Shown here: positions 1-64,000 of the stretch, piece after piece
Layout of the letters: each line of letters begins with the position of its first letter
How positions within the stretch are numbered: the first letter of the stretch is position 1
NCBI GenBank assembly: GCA_004123355.1
Contig: SCHM01000005.1
Span: forward strand, 1,364,001-1,428,000
Source of the DNA: Amphirosellinia nigrospora
Lineage: Eukaryota; Ascomycota; Sordariomycetes; Xylariales; Xylariaceae
Direction: 5' to 3'
Length of the DNA stretch: 64,000 nucleotides
Notes under the pieces: model-generated
Told to the model about the DNA's origin: nothing
Database searches by the model: none
Seen by the model: only the letters and a program-made list of their open reading frames with translations
Made by a program: the position numbers and the translations under genes

Positions 1-858
1 CAAAGTTGACCGCCGCCGCCCGGTTCATGCCCGGCGTAGAGTGTGTGTCTGCGTCCAACGAGTCGCCCGGATCACGCGCACGCCTCCGTGCTCCCACCCG
101 TCGTCAGGAGGGGATGGTGAGTGACCTTCGACTGGCGCATTTGTGCCGCTGGCGGTTGACATGATGTCGGTCTAATGAGTTAGGTAGGCGTGGATGATAG
201 TGAATAGAAGGTTGTGTGTATGTGATGAGATACAACTTTGTCGTGTAAGTGAGCAATAAGGTTAGGTGGTATTCATTACCCGATATGAGAAAGCCGCCGT
301 CTCCCATCAAGCGGAGTCGACCATGTAAGGATGCGGAGTTTTGGAGTTGCATTGGGGTTCCGTCTTAGATGCACTGTCAAGTTCTATTAGGTACATTGGA
401 GAAGTTGGTCGTGTATGATCTGAGGTGGTATCACTAAGGGGCTGAACGCTTTTTGGAAGGAGAATCTTGTCATACGACTCAGCATGGAAAACGTGTCGCT
501 AATAAGGACTTCCCATGTTGACAATAACCAGACAGCACGACAGGCAGTCAAGCATCTTGACTATGAATTTCTAGAGACACCTATGGGAAACGCGGACCTT
601 AAAAGATGATCTAGGCGGGTTACCTACGGCGAGTCGCCTACAAAAACGACCCCATCACTCGTATGAACGCTATTCATCACAGGTAGATTCCTATTCTAAT
701 GTACATTGGCTGGTGATGAATATGAGTTAAACATATTTGAGTGACACAGTATGGTGTTTCCTTCGTCAAAATCCAAGGTGCCATCAACAATCGTTCTCAC
801 GCCTATACACTTCCAGGTCGCTCGCAGAGCAACCCAGCTAGCCAAACAATAGGCAGGG

Positions 859-3484
859 TTAAAATACAAACCTATCTATCCTCCGTTGGCCTGGGGAACT
901 CATCTCATTCTCCATGTGCCGGTTTTGTACCCCCAGTGACCTTAGGCGCTGAGAGAGCAGGCTCTCGGCGGCAGCCGGGTGCCGTTGATGAGGCCAGAAA
1001 ATGCGTTACCACCATATCCCACATCGCCTTTATTCAGTTTATCATACTTATCGATTTGACCATCGTAGCCATCCACGCGGACGGGTTACTGGAGGCCTGG
1101 GTTGTTGGCGACTCGTCTGAGACGATTCGAGGGATTGCGGTTGTGCAGCCCTAAAGCGCCACTCCCGTCTTCCATGGGCCTTCTCGTCTGGCTCCCGAGA
1201 CACCAAACGGTAGGGCTCCACCGGCGTGAGATCGCCGGCGAGGCCATGCGGGAAGGGTACCCCGACGGGCTAGGCGATACAAAGCCCTCTGCTATATCCA
1301 AGGCACGACCTGCGCCGCCAAAGTAAAATCCGGAGCTTCGTCTTCTAAAAGCCGCATCGGCGGCTAGACTAGCACCGGGCCCCGTTCCATTAGACGATGG
1401 CGGATGCATCATCCGAATAGCCTTGTACGGTGTGAACCTAGGCTCCGGAGCGTGATTTCATTTTGAAGCTTCTCTTTCCCGTCGGGCACACGATTGGCAA
1501 AAACGACCCTAATGTTTTTGTATAAGTAGAAGCGACCTCGTGAGGGACAACATATATGCAAATGAACAAGATATCTGAGAATGGGGCGGTCTGCCGATGA
1601 ACTACTTTTCAAGTCGGGCATATTGTCAATAATTGGACCTTTGGAGTAGCTACGTTGCCGCACAAAAGTCTTGGTGCCAGGTTCATCCCGGCGAGATCAT
1701 AGGGAACCAAGAATAACTTAACCGCTGTCCTATTCGGATTCTTGATGATGATTTGAATTTGCCCCTTCTCGGGATCCGGTAGCTTCCGCCGGAGGTGCTC
1801 GCGGCGAACCAGACGCGCGTTTCGTTCTCTGGGCTTTACGAGCGTCCCAACTGGATAAATTCGCGTCAGATTGATTTGCATCTATCACATCCGTGCCAGC
1901 CGCTCTCCTGCTCTGATGTTTCCTTTTTGATCGAACCTCGTCCCCTTGATTAGGCAAACCATTCTCTAAATCAATCTGTCCTACGTATGACTCGGCCCGT
2001 CGTCTTCCTTGGATCGACCATGTGATGAGCTTGCATAACTGTAGAATACAGCAGGAAAAGGCAAAGTCACGTGAGAGGGACAGCGAAGGCTTGATTGCAC
2101 TTGCCCAAGCCAAGGACACCGATCTGTGCTAAGAAGTCAAGAGGTTTTGATGCGTTGTCGACATTCGGCCACGCAAGATACTTTCTCGTAAGACCCAACC
2201 ATAGACGCATGCTGAAGTGGAGAGACATCGAGCTGATGGAGGGGCGGCGGGATTGAAGGAATGCTGGCGTCTGGGGGACGACCCGGGTATAGAGAAACTG
2301 ATGCCGCAACCAGAGATCGCCCGTGGCTGGTGGGCTTGGTAAGGGAAAGTCTTCTCCTGGCGAAATGAAGGGCTCTGTCTTTGCAGTGGGCTGGTCGAAA
2401 ATCCGAAGGAACCCGAGAGAGATGATAGGACGGTATGGCGGCGTTGTTGTCTTTGTTGTCGAGGAAGATTGTTGGCGAGGTTTATGGGAGAAACCAGATC
2501 AGCCTCATCATTACTCTCGGACTGAAACAGGGGCTAGTTGGTGGCTTATAGACGAAGCTCGTCGAGAGAGAGGAAGATAGAGAGGACAGCGCAGACCGCA
2601 CTTCATCAGACCGCACGGGTGGAGGCTGTCTTCCCCCAATATCCAATGATGTAAAGTGTCTCGGAGGCGAAGTGGCGATCCATGCTGGAGGATTCTCGTT
2701 TAAATCCTGTCCGGACCGGGCGAGGGCTCGACGGTCGGAGGGGCTCCCGTCTGGGGACGTCTCGTCGTGTGTGAAATCGCCACTATGTAGGGCTGACCGG
2801 GGCCGCTCGATCTGGGTCCCGGCCTGGCGCCTCCTCTCATCGTCTGACACAGTCCTCTCTTTCTCGGGAGTTATCGTCGGGGGTGGCAATAAACCTGGTG
2901 AGGCCGCGTTGCTACGCGGCGGGCTTTGGGTGGGCGAGATAGAGGGTCGTTGTTGGCTCCATGCCGACTCAAGCTGCTAACAGAACATGCTTCTTTAGTA
3001 CAATGCGACAGGCCGGAGCAACCAAGAATAGAAACGAAGAGGTATAGGTGAATTGAACGAACATAGCGGTGAGGAATCCACGTCGGACTCTCCCCTCTCT
3101 TCAGTCTTTCGATCAAGTCGGCGCGATCGGTACAAACCGCCGGGTTCAGGGTGTTGCCGTGATCTGAGTTCCAGGAGAGATGAGGTAGGGGAGGGGAGGG
3201 GGCGGAGGGCTGTCGGGGACCGGACCTTCGCACAGCTCGGTCCTTATGCTCTCTTCAGATAGCTTTCTCGACAGAGATTGTAGGCGACGACGCCGGGTAT
3301 GTTCTAGCTGTTCGGGCGGAGGCATTGTGGACAAGCTATTCCCGGTGCCGTTGCCGTCACGGTCGTCGTCGTCGTTGTCCTCGTTTGTGTTCGCCTTCTC
3401 AGCTCGATCATGGGCTCGATCATGACCATCAGCGGACTCCCTCCGCGTCAGATCTCTGTGCAGGTCCTGTTGAAAGATGGGCAT
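859..3484 (-). CDS. Atos-like protein (DUF4210 plus Chromosome_seg domains)
   Basis: The protein belongs to the Atos/FAM214 family, whose fungal members carry a DUF4210 domain followed by a domain named for chromosome segregation in meiosis; the molecular role is poorly known. The DUF4210 core is visible near 2100-2230 (motifs SMVGSYEE, ILRGRMSTT, KPLDFLAQIGVLG). The second domain lies near 1450-1780 (GQIQIIIKNPNRTAVKLFLV, then LVHLHICCPSRGRFYLYK, then VVFANRVPDGKEKL). The N-terminal half is low-complexity, rich in Ser, Pro and Arg. One intron at 2974..3062 (GTTCGT..CAG) joins the PHRY exon to the LESAWS exon. I chose the MPIF start at 3484; an in-frame ATG at 3511 is possible. Several one-base frame breaks occur (for example near 3170, 2500, 2180 and 965), so the model is composite. 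The last segment ends RIDRFVF before the stop at 859. Family assignment is confident; exact boundaries are less so. Confidence 0.85.
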
Positions 3485-4363
3485 ACTGCATGGGTACTTC
3501 ACGAATGTCACGGTAACGCTAAGATCCTACCTATCGGCTGGTTATAGATACGGTCAATGGACTGAACACGGGGTTGGGATGTGTCTCTTTCCCTGTTGGC
3601 GCGACGACCGGTGATAGGATCACCAGTAGTAGCCCAACTATGCAGGGACAGCGAGACGTTCTGGGCTTGCTACAGCATCCAGCAGACTTGGTCGCCCTCG
3701 GCCTTCTACGGCTCCCTCAACGACACCGAGATGGTTCGGTCGGGGCGGCCAGGTTAGAGACAGAGAGGCCGAGAGGCAGGGACGCCGAGAGATAAAGGAC
3801 TAAAGACTAAAGACAAAAAGACTGGCGGCTAGAGAAGGTCAACAGGCTGCTGTTGAATGTAATACGGCTGTCGATTTCGACGTGGAACAGTACTCAGTCA
3901 GGTTTACGGCTGTGGCGGCTCAGATGTCTCAAAGGGGTCCTTGAGTCAGTCAGTCGAAAGACAGGAAAGTCGCATCATGCAATGGACAGGGTTCTATCGA
4001 GTGTTTTAACGTGCAGTGCCGGAAACCGGAAACCGGAAAGTGGAAAGTGGAAAGTGGTCATTGGGCCTGGAGATAACCGTTACACCTTGTGGGGCCCGCG
4101 CGCTGTCAGCAGCTAATTTAGCGCATGTACGGTGCCAGATAGGTAACCTATACCTACAGTAGTACGCTATCATTTTTACTAGAGGCGGACAAGCGGTATC
4201 ACTGATCGCTGATTGTAGATAGAGCAGGTACTTAGCTAGCGGCCCATACTTTTTTTCACCACCATTGGGATCTCATGCCCATGCCATGCCATGCCGTGTC
4301 ACATGTGTACTCTCCTCCACTAAGGCTGCTCCACGATATTCCACGCAAAAGAACCAGAATAAC
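3485..4363. promoter_or_regulatory. Divergent intergenic region, Atos-like / fyv7
   Basis: This stretch separates two genes transcribed away from each other and so should hold both promoters. I see no supported gene in it. It contains short direct repeats: a run of GGAAACC / GGAAAGT units at about 4018-4057 and GAGAGGC / ACTAAAGAC-type repeats at about 3755-3815. No specific factor site can be named. Confidence 0.5.
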
Positions 4364-5199
4364 ATGGCACAAAGCAAAAAGAGGCCGATCGACGGCGATG
4401 ATGCAACGGGCCAGCCACCAAGAAGCATCGCAAGGGTTTCGAGTAGGGCCAGAAAACCTACCTGACGGTGCCTGGAGGCGAAAAGGTAAAGTCAAGCCCG
4501 CCATCTCCATGCTATGCCGCGCACGGCCTGGCTGATATCCGTGACCAACAGTCGACAGGATAAAGAAAGACCTCATTCACAAGGCGAAAGTGAAGAAGGC
4601 GTATAAGAAAATTAAGACCACCGAGCTCGCTACCTCTTCCTCGGCTTCGAAACCCGCCCACACAGATATCCATGCTGGCTCTGTTACCATCGTAAGGACG
4701 GACACAGGAGAGGATGGAGACGGCAGCCCTGACCGTAAAGAGAGTAGCGACGCGAGTTGCGAAAGAGAAGATGAAGAAAGGGAAGACGAACTAGAACCGC
4801 CCTCTCCACAGATCCACCCCCAGCGTCAGGCGATGCTCGATGATGATGACGATGACAACAACGACTCAGGAAACGCCACCGTAACGCGAATAAGGAGAGC
4901 AATGAGGAGCCTTTCGAACCTAAGCAAAGACAGAGCCAGAGAGAACGGCCGAGTAGGCAGAAGCGGAAACCCGGGTACTTCGACAAGGCTCTCACGGTAG
5001 CCGAGCGCAAGAAGGCCGAGGCGCGCGAGCGCGCAGCCGAGCACGCACGCAGGGAGGCCGAACGCCAGCACAAAACGGAGGAGCGGAACGCTTCCGTCAC
5101 GCCATGGCCAAGGCACGGAAGCCAGGTCGGGACGGCCAGCGTCGCCTGGGTCGCGAGAGCGGGCTTCTGCTAGAGAAAGTGAAGAAGATGGTGGGTTGA
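4364..5199 (+). CDS. FYV7: rRNA-processing protein Fyv7 family
   Basis: This family takes part in processing of the 18S rRNA precursor in the nucleolus (small-subunit biogenesis). The sequence shows the fungal layout: a short basic N-terminus, the conserved FRVGPENLPDGAWRRK block (about 4438-4485), one short intron (GTAAAG.. to ..CAACAG, about 4486-4553), then KKDLIHKAKVKKAYKKIK. An acidic low-complexity middle (IHPQRQAMLDDDDDD) follows, then a long charged helix with KPGYFDKAL and EARERAAEHARREAERQ, and the C-terminal block AMAKARKPGRDGQRRLGRES ending KVKKMVG. Start: ATG at 4364 (MAQSKKRP). At least four one-base losses break the frame (near 4412, 4443, 4915 and 5085), so no single open frame spans the gene. 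The family call rests on several separate conserved blocks. Confidence 0.85.
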
Positions 5200-5906
5200 A
5201 GATGAAGTGTTTAGGACCAATGGCCCAGGTAAGATAGAGTGATCGTATCTAGCCTGCAAAACTATGGCTGAGATGATAAGGCTCAAGGATATATTTAACG
5301 ATACCCAAATATTAATGCCGTCCTTATCCCGCTTCTTATACAAGGGAGAGAGGAGAGCAATCAAATGATCTCGTAGCTACAAGTATACCGTGACGATGCG
5401 AGAAGAAATCTTGTCTCCTCTGTTGATTTATTTAACACGGGCTCACTCACGAGGTCAACTCGATGCCCCGGTTACAGCATAGGACACTCTTGAACAGAGG
5501 TGAGGTAGAGTGTAGGTCAACCAGACCCTAAACCGAAATTCCTATTCAGGTGGGAAAGAACAACCCCTGAGGTTTGTGATGGCTTACAACAATGTTACAT
5601 TCGAGTACGCATATGTAGTAATATAATAATCTTAGATGCTATATATCTATAATACATATCCTATCTCACGAACGCCGATTAGGAGGGCAAGGGCAGAGTA
5701 TTGACAAATAAGCTGTAATAATAGTAGTATGATTTCTTCATTACTTGGGTATCGCATTCCACGCTCGCAAACGTAGTCAGGGGTAAGGGGCCGATATATC
5801 GTTATATCCCTCCCTGTCAGACGTACAAAATAGAGAGAAGCAGGATGAAAAGGCTTCGTAAGGAGCGTAAGTGTGCGTGTGTGTATCGTATAATTATCGG
5901 CTTCCA
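5200..5906. other. Convergent 3' intergenic region, no gene seen
   Basis: The stretch lies between the 3' ends of fyv7 (+) and the kelch gene (-). It is moderately A+T-rich around 5590-5720 and probably holds the 3' UTRs and poly(A) sites of both genes. I see no coding potential matching a known family. Confidence 0.4.
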
Positions 5907-7938
5907 TCATTGCGAGTATTTGCGGTCCGGCAGCTCGGTCCTGGTGCTTTCGAGGGGCGCGGGCAGTTCGTGCGCCCACTGCATGTTCGGGTCCATCAGC
6001 TCGCCGACTCTCAGTTCCGTCCCGGTAGCTCTCCTCCGTGTATCGGCACGACGCCGTCCTGATGTCCCGAGAGCTCGCTCAGCCAGGTGTTGTGTGGTTT
6101 GTAAGTCTCGGCGTAGTGAGGGTGCGGGTAGGGCTGTGGCGATACCGACGGCGAATGAATATTTCCACCCAGAGCATGGAGTCGGGAGAGTACGTGGACC
6201 GGGGTCCTCGATGGTCCTTGGGCCAGGGCTCCGGTTTGTACTCGGCAATCTCTTCCTGATCGCTGTCGGCGCCGGCGGTGGCGGCGGCCAGTTGGCGACC
6301 CGAGTCAGGGGTATCGACGCGTGTACGTCTGCTGCGTCTCACCAACATGAAGGACATCATGCCGATGGCTGCCACCCCCAGCACGCCGCCCACAGCACCG
6401 CCGACGATGACGCTGGTGGAATGCGAGTTGGCTACCGTGCCTTGTGTAGGAGCCGGTGTCGGCGTGACATCCTTCTTCATAAAGATGCCCTCTACCTCAA
6501 CGCTATCCCAGTGTATGTTGTCCAGATTACCGGCGTCGTACCATTCCTTCACTACCGTCGGGCTATCGTAAGCCGTTGCGTTGGGGTTGTATGAATCCGT
6601 CCACTTCAACTCCGTCATGTCGAGGATGCCGATCCCGTACGGCCAAGGGTCTGCCGTGGTTGGTGCCGTAAAAGTCCTGTTCTCGCCATCCACGCCACCC
6701 ATACTCAGCATCTGTCGCTTGCCCTGGCCGACAACCGCGCACTGATGGTCAGACCGTGGGGGGGCATCTGTCGGGCCCTTGAAGAAAACAAAGCCCGGGA
6801 GAGAAAGCACGTATACTTCGGGTGATGTGTCGCGGAGCTGATCCGATACACCGCCGTACAGAAATCTATGAATCTATGTCAGCCCATCTAACTGTCCATC
6901 CATCGTTGTTCCGAACCTACATTTCATAAGTGCCGTTGGGACCGGGCACGCCAACGCTGCAATGTGATTCGATTGTCGGCGGCTTGGTGCCTGATGTTGT
7001 TTGAGAATGCCATTGCTTCGTTACTGGGTCGACCATTGTAATGCGATTCCAACTCATCTCCACGATAGTCTCGTTCGTCGCGTCTACGGGGGTCTCCGCA
7101 CCGCCGAGGAATAAGAGCAGACCGTTCGGACCGAAAGGTACATACTCGGCCCTCGCGTTCAAGCTAGTCCCATAACCACCGTACGACGACGTCGTCGTGT
7201 TGTCCCATTCGCCCGTCTGGAAATTGTACGAGACCAGGCCTGGCGTGGCATATCCTGGGATTTCCTTGGTGACCGAACCGTCTGACGACTTGGTTACGGC
7301 ACCCCCAAACGCGAAACCCGCGTCCTTGGTTTGCGTAAAAGCCGAGCCAAAGGTGCCTTTCAGTTTCGAGAAGGTCACGTAGTCTCGTTGCGTCACTTGG
7401 GCCCATGAGCCGCCGCCGGAGCCGTCGGCCTGGAAGCGCCAGAGGCCCTGGCTTGGCGATGAGCCGCTCGTCGTGAACCCGCCCCATGTGTATAGACTCT
7501 TTGTCGAAAGATCCGTCCAATGTACCTGTTTACTAAGTAGTGGTGCGGTCTTTGGTATCGATCGAAGCGGGACTGTCTCAGTCGTCCACGCTTCTGTCAA
7601 ATCAATAGACCATGTGGTATCGACTACAACACGCGTCAGCAGTGCTCACGAGTGGTCATGCTGCCACGTCCAAGAAAAAGGAAAGGGGGCCTACCATCGA
7701 AAGACGGACTGTCGGCAGGCGCACTGCCGTCGACTCGTTCGGTGATCTGGCCGCCGTCGGCGTAGAGATAGTCGCCAAGAACGGCGACGGTGTGGCACCC
7801 GCGGCGGATGAAGTCGTGGGCGCTGGGAATGCCGCTACCATTGAGGCCGTCGCGACTCCTGATCTCCCTCGCAATTCCCAGCCGCCCCAGCGCTCCCCAT
7901 ACCGCGAGAAGCACGAAGGGGGAGCATCTGCCCTTCAT
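5907..7938 (-). CDS. Kelch-repeat surface protein with signal peptide and one TM helix
   Basis: A secreted or plasma-membrane-anchored fungal kelch protein. The N-terminus (MKGRCSPFVLLAVWGALG) resembles a signal peptide; an in-frame ATG upstream at 7983 would add 15 residues. The ectodomain shows beta-propeller elements: HTVAVLGDYLYADGG, SLYTWGGF, LLLFLGGAE, FLYGGVSD and MLSMGGVDGENR. A juxtamembrane Thr/Pro stretch precedes one hydrophobic helix (SVIVGGAVGGVLGVAAIGMM) and a basic stop-transfer RRSRR, leaving a cytosolic tail of roughly 100 residues. Introns: 7624..7694 and 6866..6920. Two frame breaks in the tail (near 6160 and 6015) are each repaired by one extra base, giving a tail that ends RTELPDRKYSQ. 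The ligand is unknown. Fungal relatives are annotated as kelch or galactose-oxidase-like cell-wall-anchored proteins. Confidence 0.8.
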
Positions 7939-10900
7939 TGGCGGAAGAACTTGAGGAATGGGCGAAACGCACGCTTTCACCACCGTCGATGTTCAAACAT
8001 TATGTGTGGAAGGGAGGAAAGTAGCAAGCCGGGGACGGGTAGCCAATATACCGCCGGAATGGCTTAGTCAACGGCACTCGTAGGGCAAGAGAGGAGTTCC
8101 CGAGAAATTGGAATGAGGTCTGTGGACTTGAGGTGGACTTGAGGTGGGCTCGACGGGCGACGCTACTGCACATAAGATCTTGGGTGACAGGTACAGCAAG
8201 TTTAGAACGACGTTCACTCAGCCCAGGAATAACAAGACGGCGAGGAGAGGCCCCGGCCCTGGACGAGCCAAGCCAACCCCGTTCGGTTCAGACTGCTGGT
8301 TGGTCCTCCAGCCAGACCCAGGGTTGCTTTGAAAAGTTCTACACTACACTACACTATCCAAGTCAGTCGAGAGTCCTACACTACTACGCTTCCAGCCCCG
8401 ATGTCAGCATAGCCATCCTGCCTGTCGCTTCCTTGTCTCGTGTGGACTACCAGTCTATCCACCACCGCATATGCCAAACCTTCATAAGCCACCTCTATTC
8501 CCTTTTAACTGTATAGAAAGATACAATGGTGAGCCTTCCCAGCCAACCGGCATGGAAGTTAGTTAGTTATTTAATTAGTTAGTTAGATAGTTCGGTAGTT
8601 AAGTAGTTAAGTAGTTAAGTAGTTAGTCGAGTTGAACTAATCAGTCAGTCAGATGCTTCAGGCGAGAGAGGCTGCCAGGAACCGGCAGGGGGGAGGCCCG
8701 TCAAATGACTTGACAATGCCGCCCACGCCGGCTCCATCATGTTCGAATCCTTCGACAGAATGCCCAGGGCCTGTTGGCACTACGAACACTAGCAGACCAG
8801 GCACAGACGGCTTGGCAATCATCATCCCACCCATCCAGACTCATACACTACGCTATGGGAGCCGACCGCTCAGTGCGTATAATTGATTGGTTTGGCTCCC
8901 AGACACGGTACAACAAATTCGAGCGTACGGGCAACGGCAGCAGGACTCTGTTCTCCGTCTGTGTCTTCTACTGTCAGAGCTCCTGCATTCTTGTTTCTGT
9001 TTCTGCTTCTGTGCCTGTGCCTGTGCCTGTGCCTGTACCTGTGCCTGGCCATCATCGCGGATCTCTCACGGCTTACTCCATAAGGCTTGACCGGATTTGT
9101 CACGCGTAACTCGCATTTGCCGGATAAGCGCGCTGATCCTCATTCATCGCCAATGCCAGTGTTTCAAGAGTCGCGGCATACAAGTAATGTACACTAGAAT
9201 TCATCGTTCCTCGGCCCGTCATCATAGTGTATTATTGCGAGCCCTTCCGGCAAAGGAAGCCCTGCGAGAATACAGGAAAGAGTACGACACCATACTCCAA
9301 GTCCGACCGCATACCGTTGCTTTGAAGGATCCTCGCCGGCGCGGAGCGATGGCCAGTAAATCCGGAGGCATACAGCAAAGCACATCAAGTTAACCAGTTG
9401 TACCACCATGCACGACTGCTACATATTATGCGACGGACCACCGGTGGGAATTTACCTGCATGTGATACGTTGCAACACCAATGCCCAATCGTTGGCCTGC
9501 GATATTTAAGTGCCATGCAGAAACTGTGTGTGCCACAAGTGCGGTTGTTACTGCAATAGCATCCTTCCTGATGCAACCATGGAACACTCTTGTGCAAGTA
9601 ATACTCCAGCGCACACAATGTAACGACACGGCCGACGGACTCAAGGCCGGCCGGTACCGTGGCGATAAACTGATGTCATAGATATACAGATAGACGAAGG
9701 AGGAATCGGTCTAGAGTAATTGATTTGTTGTCGTGGTATTCGCGATCTCAGTAGTGTAGATATATGCGTTCCTGATTTAGCTCAAACACGTACAAGGGGG
9801 GAGGGGTAACCGGAAATACACAGGCCACAATGATAAGCGCTGAGTCTCAAAACAAGTTCCCATCTCAGCCCCCAACAGAAAGTATCCAGATGCATTGCTG
9901 CATCAGTCGTTCATTTGTCTAGTCTGAGGTTAGTTAGACTAGATAGAGCGGCCACAGGCATCGCAGCCTCACCAGCTGAGCTTTCGCCTTACCACTCCAA
10001 AGTCTTACATTTGTCATTCTGCCTACTTATAGCACCGCCGTCAAGGGCTGACGCCATGTCCACGACAACCGTCCACCGATGATTAAGATCGTCTCTCATC
10101 TACAATGCATACGCTACATAATCCCGGATTTGCATGATCGGTCGGTGGCTGTCGACCAGGTATTGTTAGTCGAAGGTCAATATTGGAGCCCCTGACAGAC
10201 CATGTATCATATAGTCCTACGCTAGACTGAAACCTCGTTTCCGTGCCTTAGTATACTAGCCCTATGTCGTTCATATCCACCCCATTATTATTTTACTATT
10301 GTCAAAACAGTTTAGGATATGCCCATAGTGTAAACTAATTTGATGCTTTTGGAACTTCATCTTATTCGCAGTGGAGAAGTGGGCACTCGACGAGGGCTGG
10401 CTGGACGAAGAGTCGTCTTACTACAGGTCAGGATACGTCAAACTCTCCCATTCCCTTCAGCCCTACACTACGTGCCACAAGGAACAGCCAGATGATCGAA
10501 ATAGGCTTGTACGGATCCTGTACGGACATTTTTTTGGTCGTTTAAATAATCGCCGGGGCCTATCTCAAAGTAGAATGGTTGTCTTCGGGAGTCGGCAATT
10601 GTTACAAGGCGTCTCTATGTCGATCGCTCGGTAGAAGGTTGTCCTAACCAAAAGTTCCAATGTTCTCGAAACTTTCTAGATGAATTTATGGCTTATTACT
10701 GAGGATTATGGGTTATTTCTTACGTTAACCTGTCTACATACTTACTTTATACCTACCGAGGCGTGACCGGAATCCAGAAAATCGGTTCTTGTTGACACAC
10801 ATAACATTCACGGTGTACCAGTCGAGATAGTTCCCAATATAAAGGCCGATGGTGTATAAGTTATATGACGCATAAAGCTAGTATGTTAAGATTATAAGTG

Positions 10901-50312: not shown

Positions 50313-50577
50313 TTAAGTTTTATAAAGGAGGTATAACTAAGTAAAAGGAAGGTTTTTTTGTCGATAAAAATTTTTTTTGTTTTTTATATCTTAAATAAGA
50401 AATTTTTTTACCCGAATTAAAAACTTTTTTATTTTTATTTATTATCGTATATATTTAGTTTTTAATATTTATTTTTTATTATATATAAATAATTATAAAT
50501 TTAATAAAATAATTTAAAATTAAATATTTATATTAAAAGTAATAATATAATATAAATAAATTATAAAGTTTTATTTT
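50313..50577 (+). repeat. Left arm of large inverted repeat
   Basis: This 265-bp arm is the reverse complement of 51745..51338 once the inserted short element there is removed (264 bp). Matching runs include TATATCTTAAATAAGAAA against its partner and ACCCGAATTAAAAAC in both. Differences are mostly G-to-A and C-to-T, with the left arm keeping more G and C. The arms enclose about 760 bp of A+T-rich DNA. It could be terminal inverted repeats of a DNA transposon or two LTRs in opposite orientation. Confidence 0.85.
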
Positions 50578-51337: not shown

Positions 51338-51745
51338 AAAAATAAAATTTTATAATTTATTTATATTATATTATTATTTTTAATATAAATATTGTTACGA
51401 TTGGTGATTCTGGCCCACTACACAGTTGCGCCAACCCCTTGTAAAAGGGATGTAGAATACCAAGGTGGAGGCTTGGCACTCTAAAGTGGGCTATATTGGG
51501 ATCTGGTCGTACAGTGGCACTTCACTGTAACTAATATTTAATTTTAAATTATTTTATTAAATTTATAGTTATTTATATAATAAAAAATAAATGCTAAGGA
51601 CTAAGTATATATAATAGTAAGTAAAAATAAAAGGGTTTTTAATTCGGGTAAAAGAATTTTTTATTTAAGATATAAAAAATAAAAAAAATTTTTATTAATA
51701 AAAAAACTTTTTTTTATTTAGTTATACTTTTTTTATAAAACTTAA
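51338..51745 (-). repeat. Right arm of large inverted repeat, interrupted by a short element
   Basis: Reverse-complement partner of 50313..50577. It is 408 bp long because a 140-bp element plus a duplicated 5-bp target is inserted in it; subtracting those leaves 264 bp. The arm is more A+T-rich than its partner, as expected if RIP acted unequally on the two copies. Confidence 0.85.
51393..51532 (+). mobile_element. Short unmutated insertion E1 (solo-LTR-like, 140 bp)
   Basis: A moderate-GC island in A+T-rich DNA. It begins TGTTACGATT and ends CTGTAACT, and is flanked on both sides by AATAT (51388-51392 and 51533-51537). The empty target is preserved in the opposite arm of the inverted repeat, which reads TATAAATATTTAATTTT with no insert. 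E1 shares CCAAGGTGGAGGCTTGGCA and nearby blocks with the element at 60443. No coding capacity. It is probably a solo LTR or small non-autonomous LTR element inserted after RIP of the target. Confidence 0.8.
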
Positions 51746-52475: not shown

Positions 52476-52765
52476 AGTTATGGATTTGCAAGCTTTAGTG
52501 GCTATGCCCTACCACTAGCCACAGCACCTGTAATCTCCACTTGCAATAACTACCACTTACAGTAAATGCGTGACTACTATTCGCAGTAAATGTAGTTGTA
52601 GTAAATAAAGGCAAGCACTAGCAATAAATATAGCTACCCTACGCAAATATTAAGCAGCTATTTATACTATAAATTTAAACTTCTTTTTTTCCTATTTTAT
52701 TTATAGATTTTATATATATATTTATATATACTAAAGTTTATTTTTTAAATATATAAAACATAACT
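52476..52765. repeat. Left LTR (290 bp), lightly mutated
   Basis: Starts AGTTATGGATTTGCAAGC and ends ACATAACT. Its first 200 bases retain many C and G (CCCTACCACTAGCCACAGC), where the right LTR has T or A. It is therefore closer to the original LTR sequence than its partner. Confidence 0.85.
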
Positions 52766-55700
52766 ATTTATAAATTTTTAAAATATTATAAAATATTAAA
52801 ACTATTTTTATAATATTTTCTAACTAAACTAAATAACTAATTTAATTTAAAAATATTAAAATGTTTTTAAAAACGAACTAAAATAATAAACGTATATAGC
52901 TGTACATATTAAAACTTTTATTAATATTTTAAATTTATTTATTTCGAATGTTCGAAATAATAAGCTTTTTATAATAAAACTTTAATAAATAATAAAAAAA
53001 TATATTTATTTTAGCTTTTTAACTACGTAAAAACTATAATAATAAGCTATAAAAACTAATTATTTTTAACTAATTTAATATAGTAGTTTTATAGTATTAT
53101 TAATAATTATATATTTAAAAAATAAAAATTCGATATAAATATTACTAGCTTTACTATATAGTTTAATATTTAGCTAATAATTATATAAATTATAAATAAA
53201 AACTAAGCTTAGCTTTTATTTTAAACTAATAATATATTTAATAATAAATAATCTAGCTTAACTTCGATAAAATTATAAATTAAACTAATATAAATAATAT
53301 ATATAAAAACTTTATTATTATTTTTTAAAAAATAAAAATATACGTTTTTTTAATAATAGTTATTATATTTTATTATTAATTTATATATATTATTAAAAAA
53401 TTAAATAAATAAAATAAATTTTATTTAACTAAGCAAAAAAATAAAATAAAATTATTATTTTATAATAAAATATATATTACGTTAATATATATTACTAATA
53501 TTTTTCGGCTTATAATTAAAAATAATTCCGGCTAATAATAAGCTAACTAATAAACTATTAATTAATTATTAAATAAACTATAAAAAATAATTAAATAATA
53601 TAATTACGCTTAAAATAACCTAAATATTTCGAACTAATAAATAGTTAATTTATTAAATCGTTATAAAATAATTTTTGCTTTATTAAATAATAAAAAAAAT
53701 AACTAATATATAGCTAAAATATTAATATATTTTTTTATATAATATAATTAAAAATAAACTTAAATTTAAAATATAAATTTAAACTATATAAAATCGCTTT
53801 AAATTTAACGCTAATTATTTTATAATAATATAGCTAAAATAGCTAATATTAAAATTTATATTAGAAATTATATAGCTAATAATTTTTTTTTATTTTTTTT
53901 TAATTATTTAACGTATTTATTAACTTAAAAACTATTTTAAAATATTTTAAAAAAATTTATATTAATATTAACCGTAATAAAAAAGTTAAAATTAATTTTT
54001 AATTATTTAGTTTTAATTAATATATATTAGCTAAGTTTTTTAAATTTTAAATTATTTTTGTCCGTTTAGCTAATAAAATTAAACTTAATAAAACTAAATA
54101 AAAAAAAAAGTTTAAAAACAAACTATTTTTAATTAGCAATTAAAACTATATTAAAATATTTAAAAAAAAATATTAACTTTAATATTTATATAAAATATTT
54201 TTAAATAGTTTATTATTTAATAATAACTAATTATAAATAAAATAAAACTTATAAAAAAAAACGTAAAAATTTATTATTATAATTTTTTTTTTTTTTTTTT
54301 TATTTTTGTTTAAATAATTTTCGTTTTATTTAAAACTAAATAATAATAATAATAACTTTGCTTAATTGCTTAAGCTTAATATTAATAAAATATAATAATT
54401 AATTTTAATAATAAATATTTTAATTATATTAAAAAAAATATACTTTAAAAAAATTTATTTAAAAAATTAAACTTTAATAAATAAAAAAGCTTAAGTTATT
54501 ATTATTTTAGCTATATATAATATATTAAATATTAAGCTAGTTAATATATAAAAAAATAAACTTATAATAAATAAAAAAAAAAATTAACTTTAAAAAAAAT
54601 AGCTTTTTTTTTAAAAAAATATTTTTAAAAAATATTATTAGTTATAAAATAAATCTAATAAAAAATATTTAAGCAAAAAATCCTTATTATATATTTATAT
54701 TATATAATAATAGATTTTTTTTAACTATAAATAATTATTTTAAAAATATAAAAATATATATAAATATAAACTAATAATTTATAAAAAAAATTATTAAACT
54801 ATTTAATTTATTATTATTATAGATTTTTTGATTAAAAAAGTTATAAATATAATAAATAATAAAAAAAAATATTAATTAAACTTTTTATTATTATATTAAA
54901 AATATATAAAAAACTTTTAAAAATAAATTATAATTATTATTAATTTAATTTATAATATTATTTTAAATAAATTATAGTTTAAATATTATAATATTTACCG
55001 AACTATCGTTAAAACTATTTAATATTTTTATTTTAGCTATTTTTAATTATAATATAAAATATTATAAATAAATAAAATAAATATATAATTATATATTAGT
55101 TTATTAATATAATACCGATTAATAAAACTATAATTTTAAAATTAAAAAATATAGCGTTAATAATAATAAAAAAAAACGAAATAATATTTAAAAAACGCAA
55201 AACTAAAAATATTTATTTTAAAGCGCAACAATTTAATATAAAAAAACTTTAATAAAATAAAATAAACAATATTTAACTAGCTTTTGCTAAAACTTATTTT
55301 TAAAAATATAAGCTATTTTTTTGCAAAAAATATAACTTCGATTTTTATTTAAAAATTTAATAAAAAAAATCTTTATTATATAAAACAAAACAATATTAAT
55401 TAATATAAAAAAAAACTAATAACCGAAATATTAGTTTAAATATAACTATTTTAATATAATATAAAAAAAAACTAAATAAAAAACGTTTATATTATTAGTA
55501 TTAATAAAATTAATAAAATAATCGGAAAATTAAAAAAAAAATAAAAATAACTTTTTTAAAAAAAAAAATAAAAAGTTAAAATAAAAAACATAAAAAAAAT
55601 ACTTAAAAAATATTAAAACTTAATACGCATTTTTAGCTAAATAAACTTTAATATATTATTATTATATTATTTATAAATAAACTATAAAATAAAATTTATT

Positions 55701-58700
55701 AAAAATAAATTTAAAGCTAATTTAAGCTATAATTTTTTATATAAAATATTATTAAATAAACTAAAAGCTATATAAAAATTTTTAATCGAAAACTTATATA
55801 AAAGCTTTATTAAACTTAATAATATTTTATATAATATATTTATTTTATTTATAAAAAAATAAATAATAAGCTTTATTTTTATATAAATTATTATAAACTA
55901 AATAAAATTATAAAAAAAACTAATATTTGTTTTTTTTTATTAAAAAAACTTTAGGTTATATTATTAAAGCGAAAATTTTTACTTAATTTAATATATAATA
56001 AATATTTAACCGTATTTATATATTATTTAAAAATAAAAATTATATAATATTTTATATAAAATATAATATATATTAATTATTAGTATTATTATTTAGTTTT
56101 ACTAATAAATTTTCGACGTTTTAATAATATATTAATAATATATTATTTAATTTTTTAAACAATTTTTATAATATTTATATAAATAATATTATTATTTACT
56201 TAAAAATAATAAAAAAATATATTATTTATATATTATATATTAAAATAACTAATTTAAACTAAATTATAAATTAATTTAAAAAAATCCGAGTTTTATATTA
56301 TTAAAACTAAATTTTTAAGCTATATTATTAATATTAAAAAAATTTAAATAAATTTTATTAAAATTAACGTTATATTAAAATAAAAAACTTTTATATTAAT
56401 TAAAAACGTATAATTTTTTTTAAAATTTTATAATTTTTATTAAAATTTTATTATATTTAAAGTTATATTATAACGCTTTTAAACTAATTAACGTAAAAAT
56501 ATACTTTTCGAATAAACTAAAAAATATAAAAATTATTTTATTAGTTTAAAAAAACTTTAATAAAATCTTTTTTATTAAAATATTTTAACTATAACCTATT
56601 AATAAAAATTAAAACTAATTTATCCAATAGCGTTAGTTTTAGCGTATTATTATAATTATATAATAAACTTAATATTTTATAATATATTTTTCGAAAATAT
56701 TTTATAACGTTAAATTAAACTATAATATTTATAATAAAAAATTACTAATAATTATATTATACTTTAAAAAAAAAAAACCTAAGTTAATTAATAGCTATAA
56801 TAAGTTTTTTTAATATTTATTAATAATTAAATATTAAAATTTTTTAATAAAAAATAATATTTTAATTTAAAATAAACCAAATAAATTAATTTTTTTTTAA
56901 AATATAACTTTTTAATATTATATCGTTCTAATAAAAACAATATATTAACTAACGCTTTATTATAAAAATAAAAAAACCTAATATAAAAAGCTAAAAAAAA
57001 ACGCAATATTATTTTATAATATTTTAGCTAATAAACAATATAATATAACTAATTTTTATATAAATAAAATACTAAATAAACTTTATTAAAATATATAACG
57101 AATTAAATATTTTTATAAAACTATAATTAATTAAATAAATTTTTAAAAAAAACTATAAAAATATAAATATAAAAATTTACCGTTAATAAATAAAAAATAA
57201 CAAACTAAAAAACCTATAAAAATTAAAAAACAAATTAATTATTTTTACGGACGTTTAATTATTTTTAATTTTTATATTTATAAATACGTTTTATTAAAAA
57301 AACATACTATAAAATACTTATTATATAGTTTAGCAAAAATAAAACACGCAAACTTATTATTAAATATTATTAATAGCTAAAACTAAATAAAAATTATAAT
57401 TATTATATAATAAATTATATAAAATATAAACTTATTAAAATATTTAAAAATAAAACTTTTAATAAACTTATATTTTTTTAATACTTAAATATATAATATT
57501 TATTATTAACTTTAAATAAATATTTAAAAATAAATATAAATATAATAACGTACTAATTATAATAAACTATTTAAATAAATAAGCTTAAATTATATTTTAT
57601 ATTATAAAAATAACTATAAAAAACATTACTAAAATATACTATAAAAAACTTTTCTAAGTTTTTAAAATATTTATAACTATAATTTTAAACTAAAAACTTT
57701 AGTTTATTTTTGCTTTTATAAACAAGCTATATAAACTAATAAATATAAAATATATACTAATTATTATAAAATATTATAAAATTATAAAATAAATAAAAAT
57801 TATAAATAAATATATTAACTAAAATTATAATTATATATAAACTATTATTAAAATAATTAATTTAAATATATATTTACTATAAATTATATATAAACTTTAA
57901 TTTTTTATACTTTAATAAAATTATTGTTTTATAAAATAAAAATAAGTTTTTTAATACTATTTAATTTTAATTAAAAAAATTGGACCGCAAATATAAAGCT
58001 ATAAAAACTTTTAAAAAAAAAAAAAAATTCGAATAAATATATAAAAAAAAATAAAAAAATAACATAATTTATTAAATTAGCTAAAAAAAACTTATAATAT
58101 ATTTAAAAACGTATAATTAATTAAACTAATAAAAGTTAATATAAACTTAATTTTAATATAAAAAACTATATATTAATTTTAAAAAAAAAACAATTTTAAA
58201 AAATAAACCGTTTATTAAATAAACTAAACTTTTTTATAATATAATAAAAGTTTAAAATACGCAAATAAAATAAAAATATTTTTATACTAAATATTTTTAT
58301 AATTTAAAAAATATTAAACTATTATTATATAAATCGATTATAAAAATACTTAAATAATTTATTATTAGGTTAAAAACGGAAAACTTAAAAAAAAAATAAT
58401 AAAACTTAAAAATAAAAAAATTTTTATTATTAAAAAAATATAAATATTTTAACTTTTTATTAAAAGTTATAATATTAAATAAACTAAAAAATTAAAACTT
58501 TAATAATATATAATATTTAATAAAAAATTTTAAAAATAATATAAAAATATTAAAAAACTTTTATAAAAACTTTAATTTAGCTAAACTTTTAGTAAAATTA
58601 TAAATATAACTAAAAGCAGCATAAAAAATAAATTTAATAAGCTATATTTAAATAATAATAAAGCTAATATAAAAGAAAAAATAATATAAAAAAAAACGCA

Positions 58701-58914
58701 TAAAATAAAAAAAATATATAAATATTATATATGCTTAAATATTATATTAAGCAAAAAAAACTTTAAATAATATATAAAAAACTAATATAATAATTTAATA
58801 ATATAAAAGCTTTACAAAAAGTTATATTAATAAAACCGAAGCGATTTTTTTTTTTGCTAAAAAATAGTTATAATTTCGACCCCGGTTAAATTATTTTTTT
58901 TTTCAAAAAAAAAT

Positions 58915-59207
58915 AGTTATAAATTTATAAGCTTTAATAGCTATGCTTTACTATTAGCTATAATACCTATAATCTTTACTTATAATAATTACTATTATAA
59001 TAAATATATAACTATTATTTATAGTAAATATAGTTTAATAAATAAAAGCAAAACATTAGTAATAAATATAGCTACCTTACGCGAATATTTAAACAGCTGC
59101 TTATACTATAGATTTAAATTTTCTTTTTTTTTTACTTTATTTGTAGATTTATATATATAATATATATATATTAAAGCCCTATTTCTTTAAGTATATAAAG
59201 CGTAATT
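58915..59207. repeat. Right LTR (293 bp), heavily mutated
   Basis: Starts AGTTATAAATTTATAAGC and ends GCGTAATT. It aligns with the left LTR along its whole length, differing mainly by C-to-T and G-to-A changes (for example CCCTACCACTAGCC against CTTTACTATTAGCT). The 3' end keeps a G where the left LTR has A and has T where the left has C, so the ancestral end was GTAACT. Confidence 0.85.
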
Positions 59208-59915: not shown

Positions 59916-60442
59916 TAAAAAACAGTATTTATAATAGTGTTATTGCTAAACCTTACTAAAATATTACCTTTATATTTTATAACACTACGTAGCACTATTA
60001 TACTTATATAATACCGCGCATTATATATAATAACATTATTCTTATAAACAATATAGTTACGACAACGTTTTTTTTTATAACGATATTATTACGTATAAAT
60101 ATTATAAATATATTTTGCAAATAAGCGTAAAATAATTAAGCATTATTATTATTTTTTTATATATTAGTTACGATTAAATATTATAATTATAACTTTTATG
60201 GGGATATATTTAAAATAACGTTTATTAATTAAAACTAGGTCGTACGGATAAATCCGTATTTTAATTATATATAATCGATTTTTTAAAATAAAAAATTTTA
60301 AAACTAACGTTTAATTATAATAAAAAAATTTATTTAACGTATATAAAATATAAATAATAAATTAAAAAAACGAGCTAAAAAAAAGCGTATAATAACTATA
60401 TAGCCGTTATTAATAAAATCGAAAACTTTAAAAACTTCGCAA

Positions 60443-60615
60443 AGTTACAACCTAGCTAATAGTGGCCACAACCCATTACGCCAAGCACTTTAAACAGGGC
60501 AAAAGGAACGTAAGGTTAGCCAAGGTGGAGGCTTGGCAACCTATTGTGGACTATATGGATTACGGATACACCTGCTTAGCCACAGGTTAGGGCTAGGGCT
60601 GGGTACTCCGTAACT
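60443..60615 (+). mobile_element. Short unmutated insertion E2 (solo-LTR-like, 173 bp)
   Basis: A moderate-GC island. It begins AGTTACAACC and ends CTCCGTAACT, giving perfect AGTTAC / GTAACT ends, with CGCAA on both sides (60438-60442 and 60616-60620). It aligns with the element at 51393, sharing TAGCCAAGGTGGAGGCTTGG-type sequence, a GTGG(A/G)CTATAT block and CGCCAA, in the same orientation. There is no coding capacity and no RIP mutation pattern, so it probably inserted after the host region had been mutated. Confidence 0.8.
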
Positions 60616-62074
60616 CGCAAAAAACTTTAAAACGAAAAGCTAAATTTATTATTAAAACAAACTATTATTATATAAAAATATAAATATTATCGCTAAATAT
60701 ATAATATTATAAAATTATTAAAAGCTAATATTTTTAAAATATTTAATTTAATTAAGCAATAATATTTAAAAAGTAGTTAATAATTTAATATAAATTATTT
60801 TTAACTAATAGTTTTTAAAATTTAAAGTTTATTTAAAAATTAAAAAAGAATTAAAAAATATTATAGCTTATTATTTAAATACGCGTTTTAAAATAATTAA
60901 TATTAAACTAAACGTTTTAATATATAAAAAATCGAAACTTTATATATATTTAATAGTATAATTTATAAATTTAATATTTATTAAATATAATAAAATATTT
61001 TTTAATTAAAACTAGTTTTATATAGCTTATAGTTTTAAAACTATATATAAAAATATTAAAATATTAATTTTAATATTTAAAAATAATAACTATAAATAAT
61101 AAACTAGTTATAAATTAATAACTAAAACGGATTAACTTTTAATTATAAGCAATAATAAATTTATCGAATTATTTAATAATATAATAAAAAAAAATATTTT
61201 ATTTTATATTTTAATTAATTTTCCGTTTAATAATAATAAAAATAATATTTTGCTCGGCTTAAATAATATAAAAAACATTATAAAAGTTTAAAATAATATT
61301 ATATATAAAATTTTTAATAGTAAAAAAAATATTTTTAATAAATATTAAAATAATAAACGTTTAATAAAATAATATAAAAAAAGTTTAAAAAAAAATCGAA
61401 GCTATAAAGCTCGAAAATATTAAATTAAAAAATATAATATAAAATATTAAGCGTTAAAATTAATAAATATATTATTAAAATAAAAATTTATTAAATAAAA
61501 TAAACTTTTTATAAAATAATATTAAAATAATAATAAAAAAACTATTTAAAAAAAAATAAAAACTAAAATTTTAAATTAAAAAATAATAAATATAATTAAA
61601 ATTTAAAAGTAGAATTTTTAAATAATAAAACTACTAATTAATATAATTATTTAAAAATATAACTAGAATTTTAATCCGTTTAATAATTATATTATTAGTT
61701 TTTATTAATAATAATATTATTTAAAAATAATTTATTAATAATATAATTATAATAACTAATTAATATAAACGTTATAATTTAAGCTATAACTTAATTAACT
61801 ATTAACGTTATATTAAATAAATAAACTATAAAAATATTACTTTTATTAAAACTAATAATAATAATAATATTAAAACTAATAAAACTATAAAAAATAAAAA
61901 GCTATTAATAATAATAACGTTAAATAAATATATTATTAAAATAATAGCTAAACGTTATTATAAATTATTAAATAAAAACAATAATAATAATAATAATTTA
62001 TTAATAGTAATAAAAACTACTAAATTATTATTATTTATTTAAAAATAATTACGCTATAAAATATATATATCGAA

Positions 62075-62110
62075 GAAAAAAAAAACGAAGGAGAAATAGT
62101 TGTTATATTA
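62075..62110 (+). repeat. Polypurine run followed by a possible LTR start
   Basis: A purine-rich run (GAAGAAAAAAAAAACGAAGG, then AGAAA) is followed by TAGTTGTTATA and then by a patch with unusual GC (CGGACCGACGGCC, TAGTCCGGGGC, GCGCGCTTTTGCGC) to about 62240. This could be a polypurine tract and the beginning of a 3' LTR of a second element, but I found no matching second LTR. Confidence 0.3.
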
Positions 62111-64000
62111 AAAGTACGAAGTATTTGTTTGTTTTATTTAAATATGTTTAGCTATAGCTAGCTTTGCTAGCTATTAATAGCTATTAACGGACCGACGGCC
62201 TATTTAGTCCGGGGCAAATATTAGCGCGCTTTTGCGCTTTTTTTAAGTTATTTAAGTTATTTAGATTTATTTAGGTTTATATATAAATTGTTTTAAAAGT
62301 AGTATATATTTTTTATTTTTTTCGTTTATAAATAATTATTTTTTAATATAAATAATTTTAATAAATTTTTATAAAATTTAGTTTTTTTTATAACTTTTAA
62401 TTTATTTAAGTTTTTTAGTATATAATTTTTTTTTATTATAATATAATTTAAAATAGTTTTTTTTATTTAGGTTTTAATTTCGGTTGTTTTTATTTTAATA
62501 TATAAAAACTAGGTTTTAATTTTAAGCTATAATTTATAGTTATTATAAAATAGTGTTAATACTAGGGGGCAATACTAGGTTGGTTAGCTTAATTAGTATA
62601 TTTATGCTATTATATATTTTTAGTTTTTTAGTTATAAACTAAGTAGGCTATTTTTTTATTAAATACTAAAGAATTTGCCTAAGCAGCTATAATAGCTTAA
62701 TATTCCTTTTATCTTGCGTAAAAAAGGCTTTTTTATATATGCTACGCAATATTTAGCGCACATATAAATTACGTACTATATATTATATAGCTATTTAAGT
62801 ATTAATAATTATATAATTTATTATTAAGAATCTAATTAAGTATTAAATTTATATACTAATATTTTTTCTAGCTATAATATATATAATATTATAAGTTTCA
62901 GTCGAAAAATAATAAAAATTTTAAATTAACTTAATATTATAATTAAACTTTTTTTTATAACTAAAAATATATAATTAATTAATTAAACTAAACGTAATAT
63001 TATATATATATATAAGCTATATATTTTATTTTAAAACGGACTTATTTTTTATTTAGCTTAAAATTATTATTTATAAACGTTTTTATTGCTATTATAATTC
63101 TAGTATAATTTTTATTTATTTTAAAGTTTAAAAAAAAACTTTTAAAAATTTTATTTTTTTATATTTATCTAGGTATTTATTAAATAAGCAATTAAATAGT
63201 GCTATTTTTTAAAACCCCGGACTTTTTTTAAATTTAAACCTTTAGGACTTTTTTAGATCTAAAAAATAAATAAATAATATTAGTTATTTTTAACTAAATA
63301 TTATTTTTTTAATATTTAATAAGTTTATTAATTATAATAAAATAAATCGAATTAGTTATATATAAAATTTATAAGTTTTAAAATATTATAAATATTAAAA
63401 TATTAAATTAATTATTTTTTAAAAAATTAATATATTAATAATTTTTTTTTTAATAGTAATAAATAAGCTTAAGCTATTAATAATTATTATATAAAGTTTT
63501 AAAGAAATTTAGCTTTATTTTTTTTTTTACTAATTTTTTAATTTATAAATTAAATAAAATAAAAACTTTTAATATTTAGTTTTTTTAGTAGTTTAGTTAA
63601 CTTATTAGCTAAATTATTTTTAACTTTATATATATTAATTTAATATAGTTAGCTTATATTTTTTAGTTAATATAATAATATTTTTTATATACTTTTTTGT
63701 TTTAATATAGCTATATATTTAAACTAATTTATAGTTTTTATATTATTATATAAAAGTAATAAAACTATTTAATAATATTTTAAATTTATTTAAAAAGTTT
63801 TTATTTATGCTAGATTATTTGCTACTTTATTTATTGCGATATATTTATTTTTAATAAAGTTTTTCGCTATAACTAATTATAGTTTAAAATATTATAATAT
63901 TAGCGCGTTATTTAAAAATATAATATATTTTATTAATAATTTATATTTTTATAAGTTTAATATTAAAATAATATTAATAATAGCAAATAAATTTATATTA

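Follow-up and report, generated by a model that had tools for sequence, protein, structure and literature searches.

The window analyzed here, a stretch of 64,000 nucleotides, contains two inverted-repeat arms, a 140-bp insertion in the right arm (E1), a RIPed retrotransposon copy, and a second short insertion belonging to a related family (E2). The coordinates of all features are compiled in Table 1. Pairwise alignment of the left arm with the reverse complement of the right arm gave 236 identities, 26 mismatches, and a single gap of 145 bases in the left arm, which corresponds to E1 plus one copy of the 5-bp duplication AATAT. The exact ends and the duplication reported in a first-pass annotation of this DNA were reproduced to the base, and the left arm, as proposed there, displays the empty target. 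Every one of the 26 differences between the arms is a transition, the pattern that RIP would leave, and the GC content is 49% in E1 versus 7% in its flanks.

Table 1. Features of the window (positions in the window; strand as read in the analysis)
Feature	Position	Strand	Remarks
Inverted-repeat left arm, uninterrupted (empty site)	50313..50577	+	Target at 50524-50528, ATATT on the plus strand
Inverted-repeat right arm, broken by E1	51338..51745	-	
Target site duplication of E1, copy 1	51388..51392	.	AATAT
E1, solo LTR of E1-type TRIM	51393..51532	-	Sense strand minus, AGTTAC...GTAACA
A-box-like TGGCGCAACTGT in E1	51422..51433	-	1 mismatch to TRGCNNARYNGG; shuffle p 0.057
ACCTTGGTATT in E1, putative RNA 5' end and self-primer	51456..51466	-	Same 11 nt complementary to the LTR/internal border of the full E1-type units L009 and L010
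TATA-like ATATAG in E1	51491..51496	-	29 nt upstream of the putative transcript start
Target site duplication of E1, copy 2	51533..51537	.	AATAT
RIPed near-full-length copy of likely helper chromovirus (partner 1)	52476..59207	+	LTRs 52476-52765 and 58915-59207
Target site duplication of E2, copy 1	60438..60442	.	CGCAA
E2, solo LTR of related TRIM family, 173 bp	60443..60615	-	AGTTAC...GTAACT
A-box-like TGGCGTAATGGG in E2	60472..60483	-	Exact match (no mismatches), in the position typical of the family; the E2 LTR holds another exact match at a different place
Putative self-primer ACCTTGGCTAA in E2	60516..60526	-	Solo LTR, hence own border site absent
TATA-like motif in E2	60551..60556	-	29 nt upstream of the putative start
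Target site duplication of E2, copy 2	60616..60620	.	CGCAA

A search of the genome (48.1 Mb in 11 contigs) with E1 yielded 18 further matches listed at E ≤ 1e-12, in line with the dispersed family anticipated from the window, and some of these are paired or tripled a few hundred base pairs apart (L009, L010, L011, L017, and L020). A 203-bp internal query was found at nine places in eight loci, seven of which also carry an E1-type LTR; overall, internal sequence is kept in 7 of the 14 E1-type loci (E1 of the window and L009 to L021). The annotation had taken the 140-bp block to be the whole mobile element and had named similarity beyond its ends as evidence to the contrary. Such similarity was found: in seven further E1-type loci it runs past the ends of E1 into a common internal region of about 200 bp. 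Because the full units consist of LTR–internal–LTR with one 5-bp duplication around the whole, E1 is an LTR and not an element. Specifically, single duplications enclose the entire unit at L009 (TTAAT), L010 (TATAT), L011 (GTTTT), L032 (TTAAT), and L035 (TAAAT), whereas E1 (AATAT), L015 (ACTAC), and E2 (CGCAA) are solo LTRs with a 5-bp duplication of their own. Units measure 475 bp at L010, 486 bp at L011, 563 bp at L032, and 570 bp at L035, with non-coding internal regions of 180 to 233 bp and LTRs of about 130 to 176 bp. E2 represents another family, whose end motif and core are those of the E1 type and in which 9 of 13 loci possess two LTRs. At the level of sequence, LTR structure, duplications, and family relationship identify these elements as TRIMs with derived solo LTRs.

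The short inverted ends and the 5-bp duplication on E1, L015, and other single copies are also what a stand-alone MITE-like DNA transposon would display, the 140 bp being moved by cut and paste. This reading is very improbable, since the repeats around the common internal region of several copies are direct rather than inverted and a single duplication lies outside the whole unit, and since the helper LTRs described below, which have similar ends, enclose reverse transcriptase (RT) and integrase genes; for the family as such it is refuted by the LTR–internal–LTR units and the similarity extending past the ends of E1. Two further candidates were discarded. The locus L021, considered as a longer autonomous LTR, is rather an E1-type LTR (positions 790 to 1156 of the locus; C4:4132389 onward) that holds a different repeat of about 238 bp; this repeat has many matches in the genome and, as judged by eye, a duplication of 8 bp (CACAGTTG), and the LTR ends 38 bases from a tRNA-Met gene called by ARAGORN. 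An autonomous 7.7-kb E2-type element was suspected at L030 from two LTR matches, but by eye its interior is a distinct insert that has been RIPed, carries terminal direct repeats of its own, and is located inside a TRIM. This nested LTR element of about 7.3 kb (within positions 762 to 8283) has the ends TGTTGG...CTGACA and the duplication ACTTT/ATTTT, again judged by eye.

Tabulation of the flanking 5-mers started from both families, 28 units or loci in all (E1 and E2 of the window, L009 to L021, and L030 to L042), of which L018, L019, L020, and L041 were left out for lack of a clean left end and L042 because it is an internal fragment only. In the 23 readable units the 5-bp duplication is perfect in 16 and has at most one mismatch in 19, whereas mismatched left/right pairs agree in 1.2% of cases. 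L033 and L037 were scored as mismatches, although a one-base shift improves both.

The strand of the elements was read from a purine tract that precedes the sense 3' LTR in most TRIM units, e.g., GTAAGGAGGGGGGA in L010 and AAGTAGGGGGGGGT in L035. At the position inspected, L017, L020, and L038 showed no such tract, and neither did L030, for which the inspected segment stops within the nested insert. The position of this G-rich tract, next to one of the LTRs in most units, places the sense strand of both E1 and E2 on the minus strand of the window. Read in this direction, the LTRs of both families share the same order of elements: LTR tip, TATA-like ATATAG, CCAAGCCTCCACCTTGG, a T-run, and an A-box-like motif. 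The TATA, start, and A-box stretches rank with the best conserved across families; the cross-family identity of the ordered stretches is 0.54 to 0.87 in 10-column bins, compared with a mean of 0.46 over the alignment, which comprises 13 of the 40 LTRs, picked for little RIP.

A likely helper is present at L059 (partner 1). It is 6,848 bp long and features two identical 296-bp LTRs, the ends AGTTAC..GTAACT, and the duplication TAAAT/TAAAT. Pfam hits above the cut-off comprise RT, RNase H, integrase, and chromodomain, with RT and the RNase H-integrase-chromodomain portion in two ORFs; by these predicted domains between its LTRs, L059 is a chromovirus, i.e., a Ty3/gypsy element with a chromodomain. 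The ORF in gag position (5582 to 7150, minus strand) gave no Pfam gag hit; the HeLo domain was matched weakly and short of the cut-off (E 1e-4).

TRIMs and helper-type elements were found directly joined at five loci. The E2-type TRIMs at L034, L036, and L040 abut a partner 1 LTR with 0, 0, and 1 nt between them, and one duplication encloses both parts: GCTTG/GCTTG at L034, AAAAG/AAAAG at L036 with L066, and AGTAC/AATAC at L040 with L065. At L036 and L040 the joined partner 1 was recognized by its LTR ends, and the spacing from near to far LTR (6,947 and 6,608 bp, respectively) approximates the length of L059. Partner 2, a second family with an LTR of about 217 bp and 41 matches listed, recognized here by its LTR, is joined to two E1-type loci; the enclosing duplications are TATTA/TATTA at L014 and ATTAT/ATTAT at L013. 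The latter locus is a chimera in which a truncated TRIM internal part, having lost the border site and B box treated below, is joined to a complete partner 2 LTR. The enclosing duplication is perfect in four of the five loci and has one mismatch in L040. Two successive insertions would have placed a 5-bp repeat between the parts, and none is present. Most simply, the cDNAs of TRIM and helper were probably joined and integrated in one event.

Later ectopic recombination would offer another origin for the joined loci, which would then have no bearing on co-integration. LTR recombination is common, and in the accessible part of one report (PMC11899658) it is among the explanations given for tandem LTR elements of plants and for TRIM arrays. 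Here, though, LTRs of different families meet at their exact ends within 0 to 1 nt (L034, L036, L040, and L014), and a single 5-bp duplication surrounds both parts in all five loci, one of them with one mismatch, so that we regard recombination as an unlikely source of these junctions. The joined insertions and the shared ends make the assignment of helper to TRIM likely. Copia RT gave 16 matches in the genome, and a scan of five such regions for LTR pairs returned one short repeat pair (L060), with no link to the TRIMs.

The copy of partner 1 in the window, 6.7 kb in size and located between E1 and E2, was compared base by base with L059. Its internal part agrees with L059 at 97% over 6,262 columns once transitions are collapsed, and at 6,728 aligned positions there are 2,823 C-to-T/G-to-A changes, 20 reverse changes, and 112 transversions. 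In all, 80% of C/G has turned to T/A, and the GC content drops from 52.5% in L059 to 10%. This comparison directly identifies the AT-rich stretch as a RIP-type product; CA is the context hit most (0.91 to 0.94), and all contexts are heavily hit (0.64 to 0.84). The AT-rich block also contains a small island of 33% GC (window positions 62100 to 62249).

The annotation had concluded, from the RIP-type composition of the target and its absence in E1, that E1 arrived after RIP. Two observations make that argument unsafe. First, the loss of C/G in the window copy of partner 1 amounts to 82% in the internal part, to 44% and 62% in the LTRs, and to 22% in the first 60 bases; as RIP fades toward the ends of the element, a short GC-rich LTR in AT-rich DNA is not a safe sign of late arrival. 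Second, the TRIM at L030 must predate the RIPed insert of about 7.3 kb in its internal region, yet its LTRs still have 49 to 50% GC and differ at 6 of 167 positions, so that dating by composition alone is unsafe. TRIMs can also be RIPed later, as indicated by 28 transitions between the two LTRs of L033. Late arrival itself is still likely on other grounds: duplications are perfect in 11 of the 15 units with flanks of 20% GC or less (L014 being counted as TATTA/TATTA), and independent RIP of both copies would often spoil a perfect match. The clean target duplications therefore favor insertion of E1 into already AT-rich DNA. Recent activity of the family, which the annotation had suggested as a possibility, is supported by near-identical LTR pairs of other copies and not by E1: the pairs of L035 (175/175, one gap column) and L017 (99/99 over part of the LTR, four gap columns) are free of substitutions, that of L010 matches at 134/135 positions (two gap columns), and the other ten pairs compared are 83.4 to 98.3% identical.

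Taken as a whole, and with the putative priming and promoter considered below included, E1 is best explained, with high probability, as the remnant of a gene-less TRIM of about 480 bp (LTR–internal–LTR), which would have been integrated with a 5-bp target duplication by Ty3/gypsy-type helper machinery into an inverted-repeat arm that was already AT-rich; LTR–LTR recombination at the site would then have left the solo LTR.

Beside the 5' LTR, the TRIMs carry a border sequence that is complementary to the stretch of their own LTR starting at ACCTTGG. The perfect run is 8 to 13 nt in 11 of 15 TRIM 5' ends and only 5 nt in the other four (L011, L017, L032, and L036); L018, tested separately from these 15, was a further miss. 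In a control with 500 shuffled LTRs, at most 5% did as well for 10 of the 11 self-complementary ends, the value for L033 being 29%. The two sides covary between the families, with GGTATT versus AATACC in the E1 type and GGTTAA versus TTAACC in the E2 type. When the families were swapped, three E2-type LTRs gave only 5 nt with the E1-type site of L010, and two E1-type LTRs gave 0 to 5 nt with E2-type sites. The border site of L059 is likewise complementary to its own LTR, over 10 nt. For partner 2, 8 to 9 of 10 positions form standard pairs, 6 to 8 of them Watson-Crick, in two RIPed copies, which hints at a self-primer there.

A Tf1-like self-complement is thus present at the LTR border, and it may serve to prime reverse transcription. 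In both E1 and E2, ACCTTGG begins 29 nt below the TATA-like motif, at which distance the TRIM RNA would start from the 5' LTR; its first 11 nt or so would fold back onto the site beside that LTR and prime reverse transcription, as in Tf1. Cleavage of this RNA 5' stretch into a primer is conceivable in view of the TATA-like motif at −29. Priming by a host tRNA, through its 3' end or an anticodon-loop fragment, would reduce the 11-nt self-complement to an RNA stem, and most fungal Helenus TRIMs do have anticodon-loop primer sites according to the available portion of PMC10886601. For the present elements we consider tRNA priming improbable, given that the complement begins right at the border, that it covaries with the LTR from one family to the other, and that the helper has it as well. 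A structured non-coding RNA reaching from the start to the T-run was also considered and rejected: among 11 units folded, the E1-type ones fold well (z −1.7 to −3.3) and the E2-type ones mostly do not (−1.8 to +0.7). RNAalifold on the 11 units returned local stems only, without support for the border stem.

The TRIMs were further scored for A-box and B-box consensus motifs, which we take to be Pol III motifs. In 33 of the 40 LTRs, drawn from both families, the best A-box match is situated 40 to 42 nt from the end of the LTR. Of the 22 E2-type LTRs, 16 have an exact match (shuffle p 0.003 to 0.023) and six do not; of the 18 E1-type LTRs, 16 have one mismatch (p 0.057 to 0.137), and L017_3 and L018 have two (p about 0.6). 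The B box, GGTTCGANNCC, resides in the internal region and is exact in 11 of 16 internals (L018 included), 21 to 25 nt past the border, with one to four mismatches in the other five; in shuffles of one internal (L035), an exact B box occurred in 0.1% of 2,000. It is part of a hairpin with a 5-bp arm and a 7-nt loop, similar to a tRNA T arm, and all five pairs are formed in 13 of the 16 internals. Covariation in this arm is weak evidence, because the two arms of an inverted repeat can be altered in parallel by RIP. About 35 nt after the B box, some 50 to 60 nt into the internal region, follows a run of 4 to 8 T. The LTR and first 300 internal bases of the helper contain no A box with one mismatch or less.

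With the A box in the LTR and the B box in the internal part, only the 5' LTR would form a full promoter. Judged from these motifs, the split across the LTR border may confine Pol III initiation to the 5' LTR, in which case E1 and other solo LTRs would be silent. The T-run would halt Pol III before the 3' LTR, so that full-length RNA would need read-through or Pol II. Transcription of a self-priming TRIM by Pol II alone, with the A- and B-box-like motifs as remnants or structural features devoid of promoter function, is accordingly a serious contender, which we rate somewhat below an even chance. It would fit the TATA-like motif of E1 and E2, which precedes the primer by 29 nt, T-runs that would end Pol III transcription early, and the lack of significance of the A box in single E1-type LTRs. 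It would also fit the tRNA searches: Rfam gave nothing relevant, with no tRNA in 11 loci, and ARAGORN placed a tRNA-Tyr across the LTR border in just 2 of 26 loci, a call on which we do not rely. An origin from a tRNA gene was set aside. It accounts less readily for an exact B box at a near-constant distance in most internals, set in its T-arm-like hairpin, and for an A box at a fixed distance in 33 LTRs although the LTRs of the two families average only 46% identity. Tentatively, and with slightly less than even confidence in the combination, we propose a TRIM lineage that brings its own primer for reverse transcription and has a type-2 Pol III promoter divided by the LTR border. Its solo and 3' LTRs would be inert, and it would be copied by, and co-integrated end to end with, a self-priming chromovirus.

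In architecture, the elements resemble TRIM/SMART elements, with a length below 1 kb, short LTRs, a non-coding internal region of about 200 bp, a purine tract, 5-bp duplications, solo LTRs, and three-LTR arrays. They differ in that the putative primer site, compared here with LTRs, is complementary to the element's own LTR and in that the sense LTR ends are AG..CA or AG..CT rather than TG..CA. TRIMs with Pol III boxes have been grouped as TRIMp3, comprising Helenus, Ajax, and Cassandra (PMC10886601, as far as its text was available). Fungal Helenus, which in the accessible parts of that paper (Kojima 2024, PMC10886601) comes from rusts and Agaricomycetes, is described there as having a tRNA-like part in the LTR, a Copia helper, and mostly anticodon-loop primer sites, with no complement between the tRNA-like part and the primer site. 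The present elements share with Helenus, as portrayed there, a fungal host, the 5-bp duplication, A and B boxes, and several families per genome. They depart from it in three respects: both boxes of Helenus lie in the LTR, whereas here the A box was found in the LTR scan and the B box in the internal scan; the fungal Helenus helper is Copia, whereas the helper identified here (partner 1, in three joined loci) is a Ty3/gypsy chromovirus; and the putative primer site here is complementary to the LTR. Transcription by Pol III, which belongs to the TRIMp3 definition, is putative for the present elements. Cassandra, a 5S-bearing plant TRIM (via the same partial source), likewise has a Pol III promoter, which is putative here; Rfam searches of the window and of 11 loci returned nothing derived from 5S. 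Tf1/sushi-type elements (Tf1, Tj1, Maggy, and Skippy), in the portions consulted of PMC4600332 and PMC6934838, possess the same kind of site beside the 5' LTR, complementary to an LTR stretch at the would-be RNA 5' end; in contrast to these, the device described here is carried by a gene-less TRIM with a primer sequence of its own. The available text of a bivalve TRIM paper mentions self-priming for other elements and proposes no clear mechanism for its TRIM, and TRIMs are reported from Venturia (PMC4646964), such detail being absent from the text examined. Among the titles and abstract openings listed from the open-access literature searched, neither a self-priming TRIM nor a split promoter was seen.

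As an insertion, E1 is ordinary; what is unusual is its TRIM family, with a self-supplied primer and a split promoter of small-RNA type, both putative. The window additionally provides a clean yardstick for RIP, a 6.7-kb element that can be set against a far less mutated copy with 52.5% GC. What keeps a TRIM dependent on its helper is described as unknown in the part of the Helenus paper available (PMC10886601), and the five natural TRIM–helper junctions, each within one target duplication, point directly to the helpers. If the split of the promoter over the LTR border is real, it would explain the silence of solo LTRs, and if the TRIM is indeed self-primed, a gene-less element can bring its own priming device rather than borrow a tRNA.
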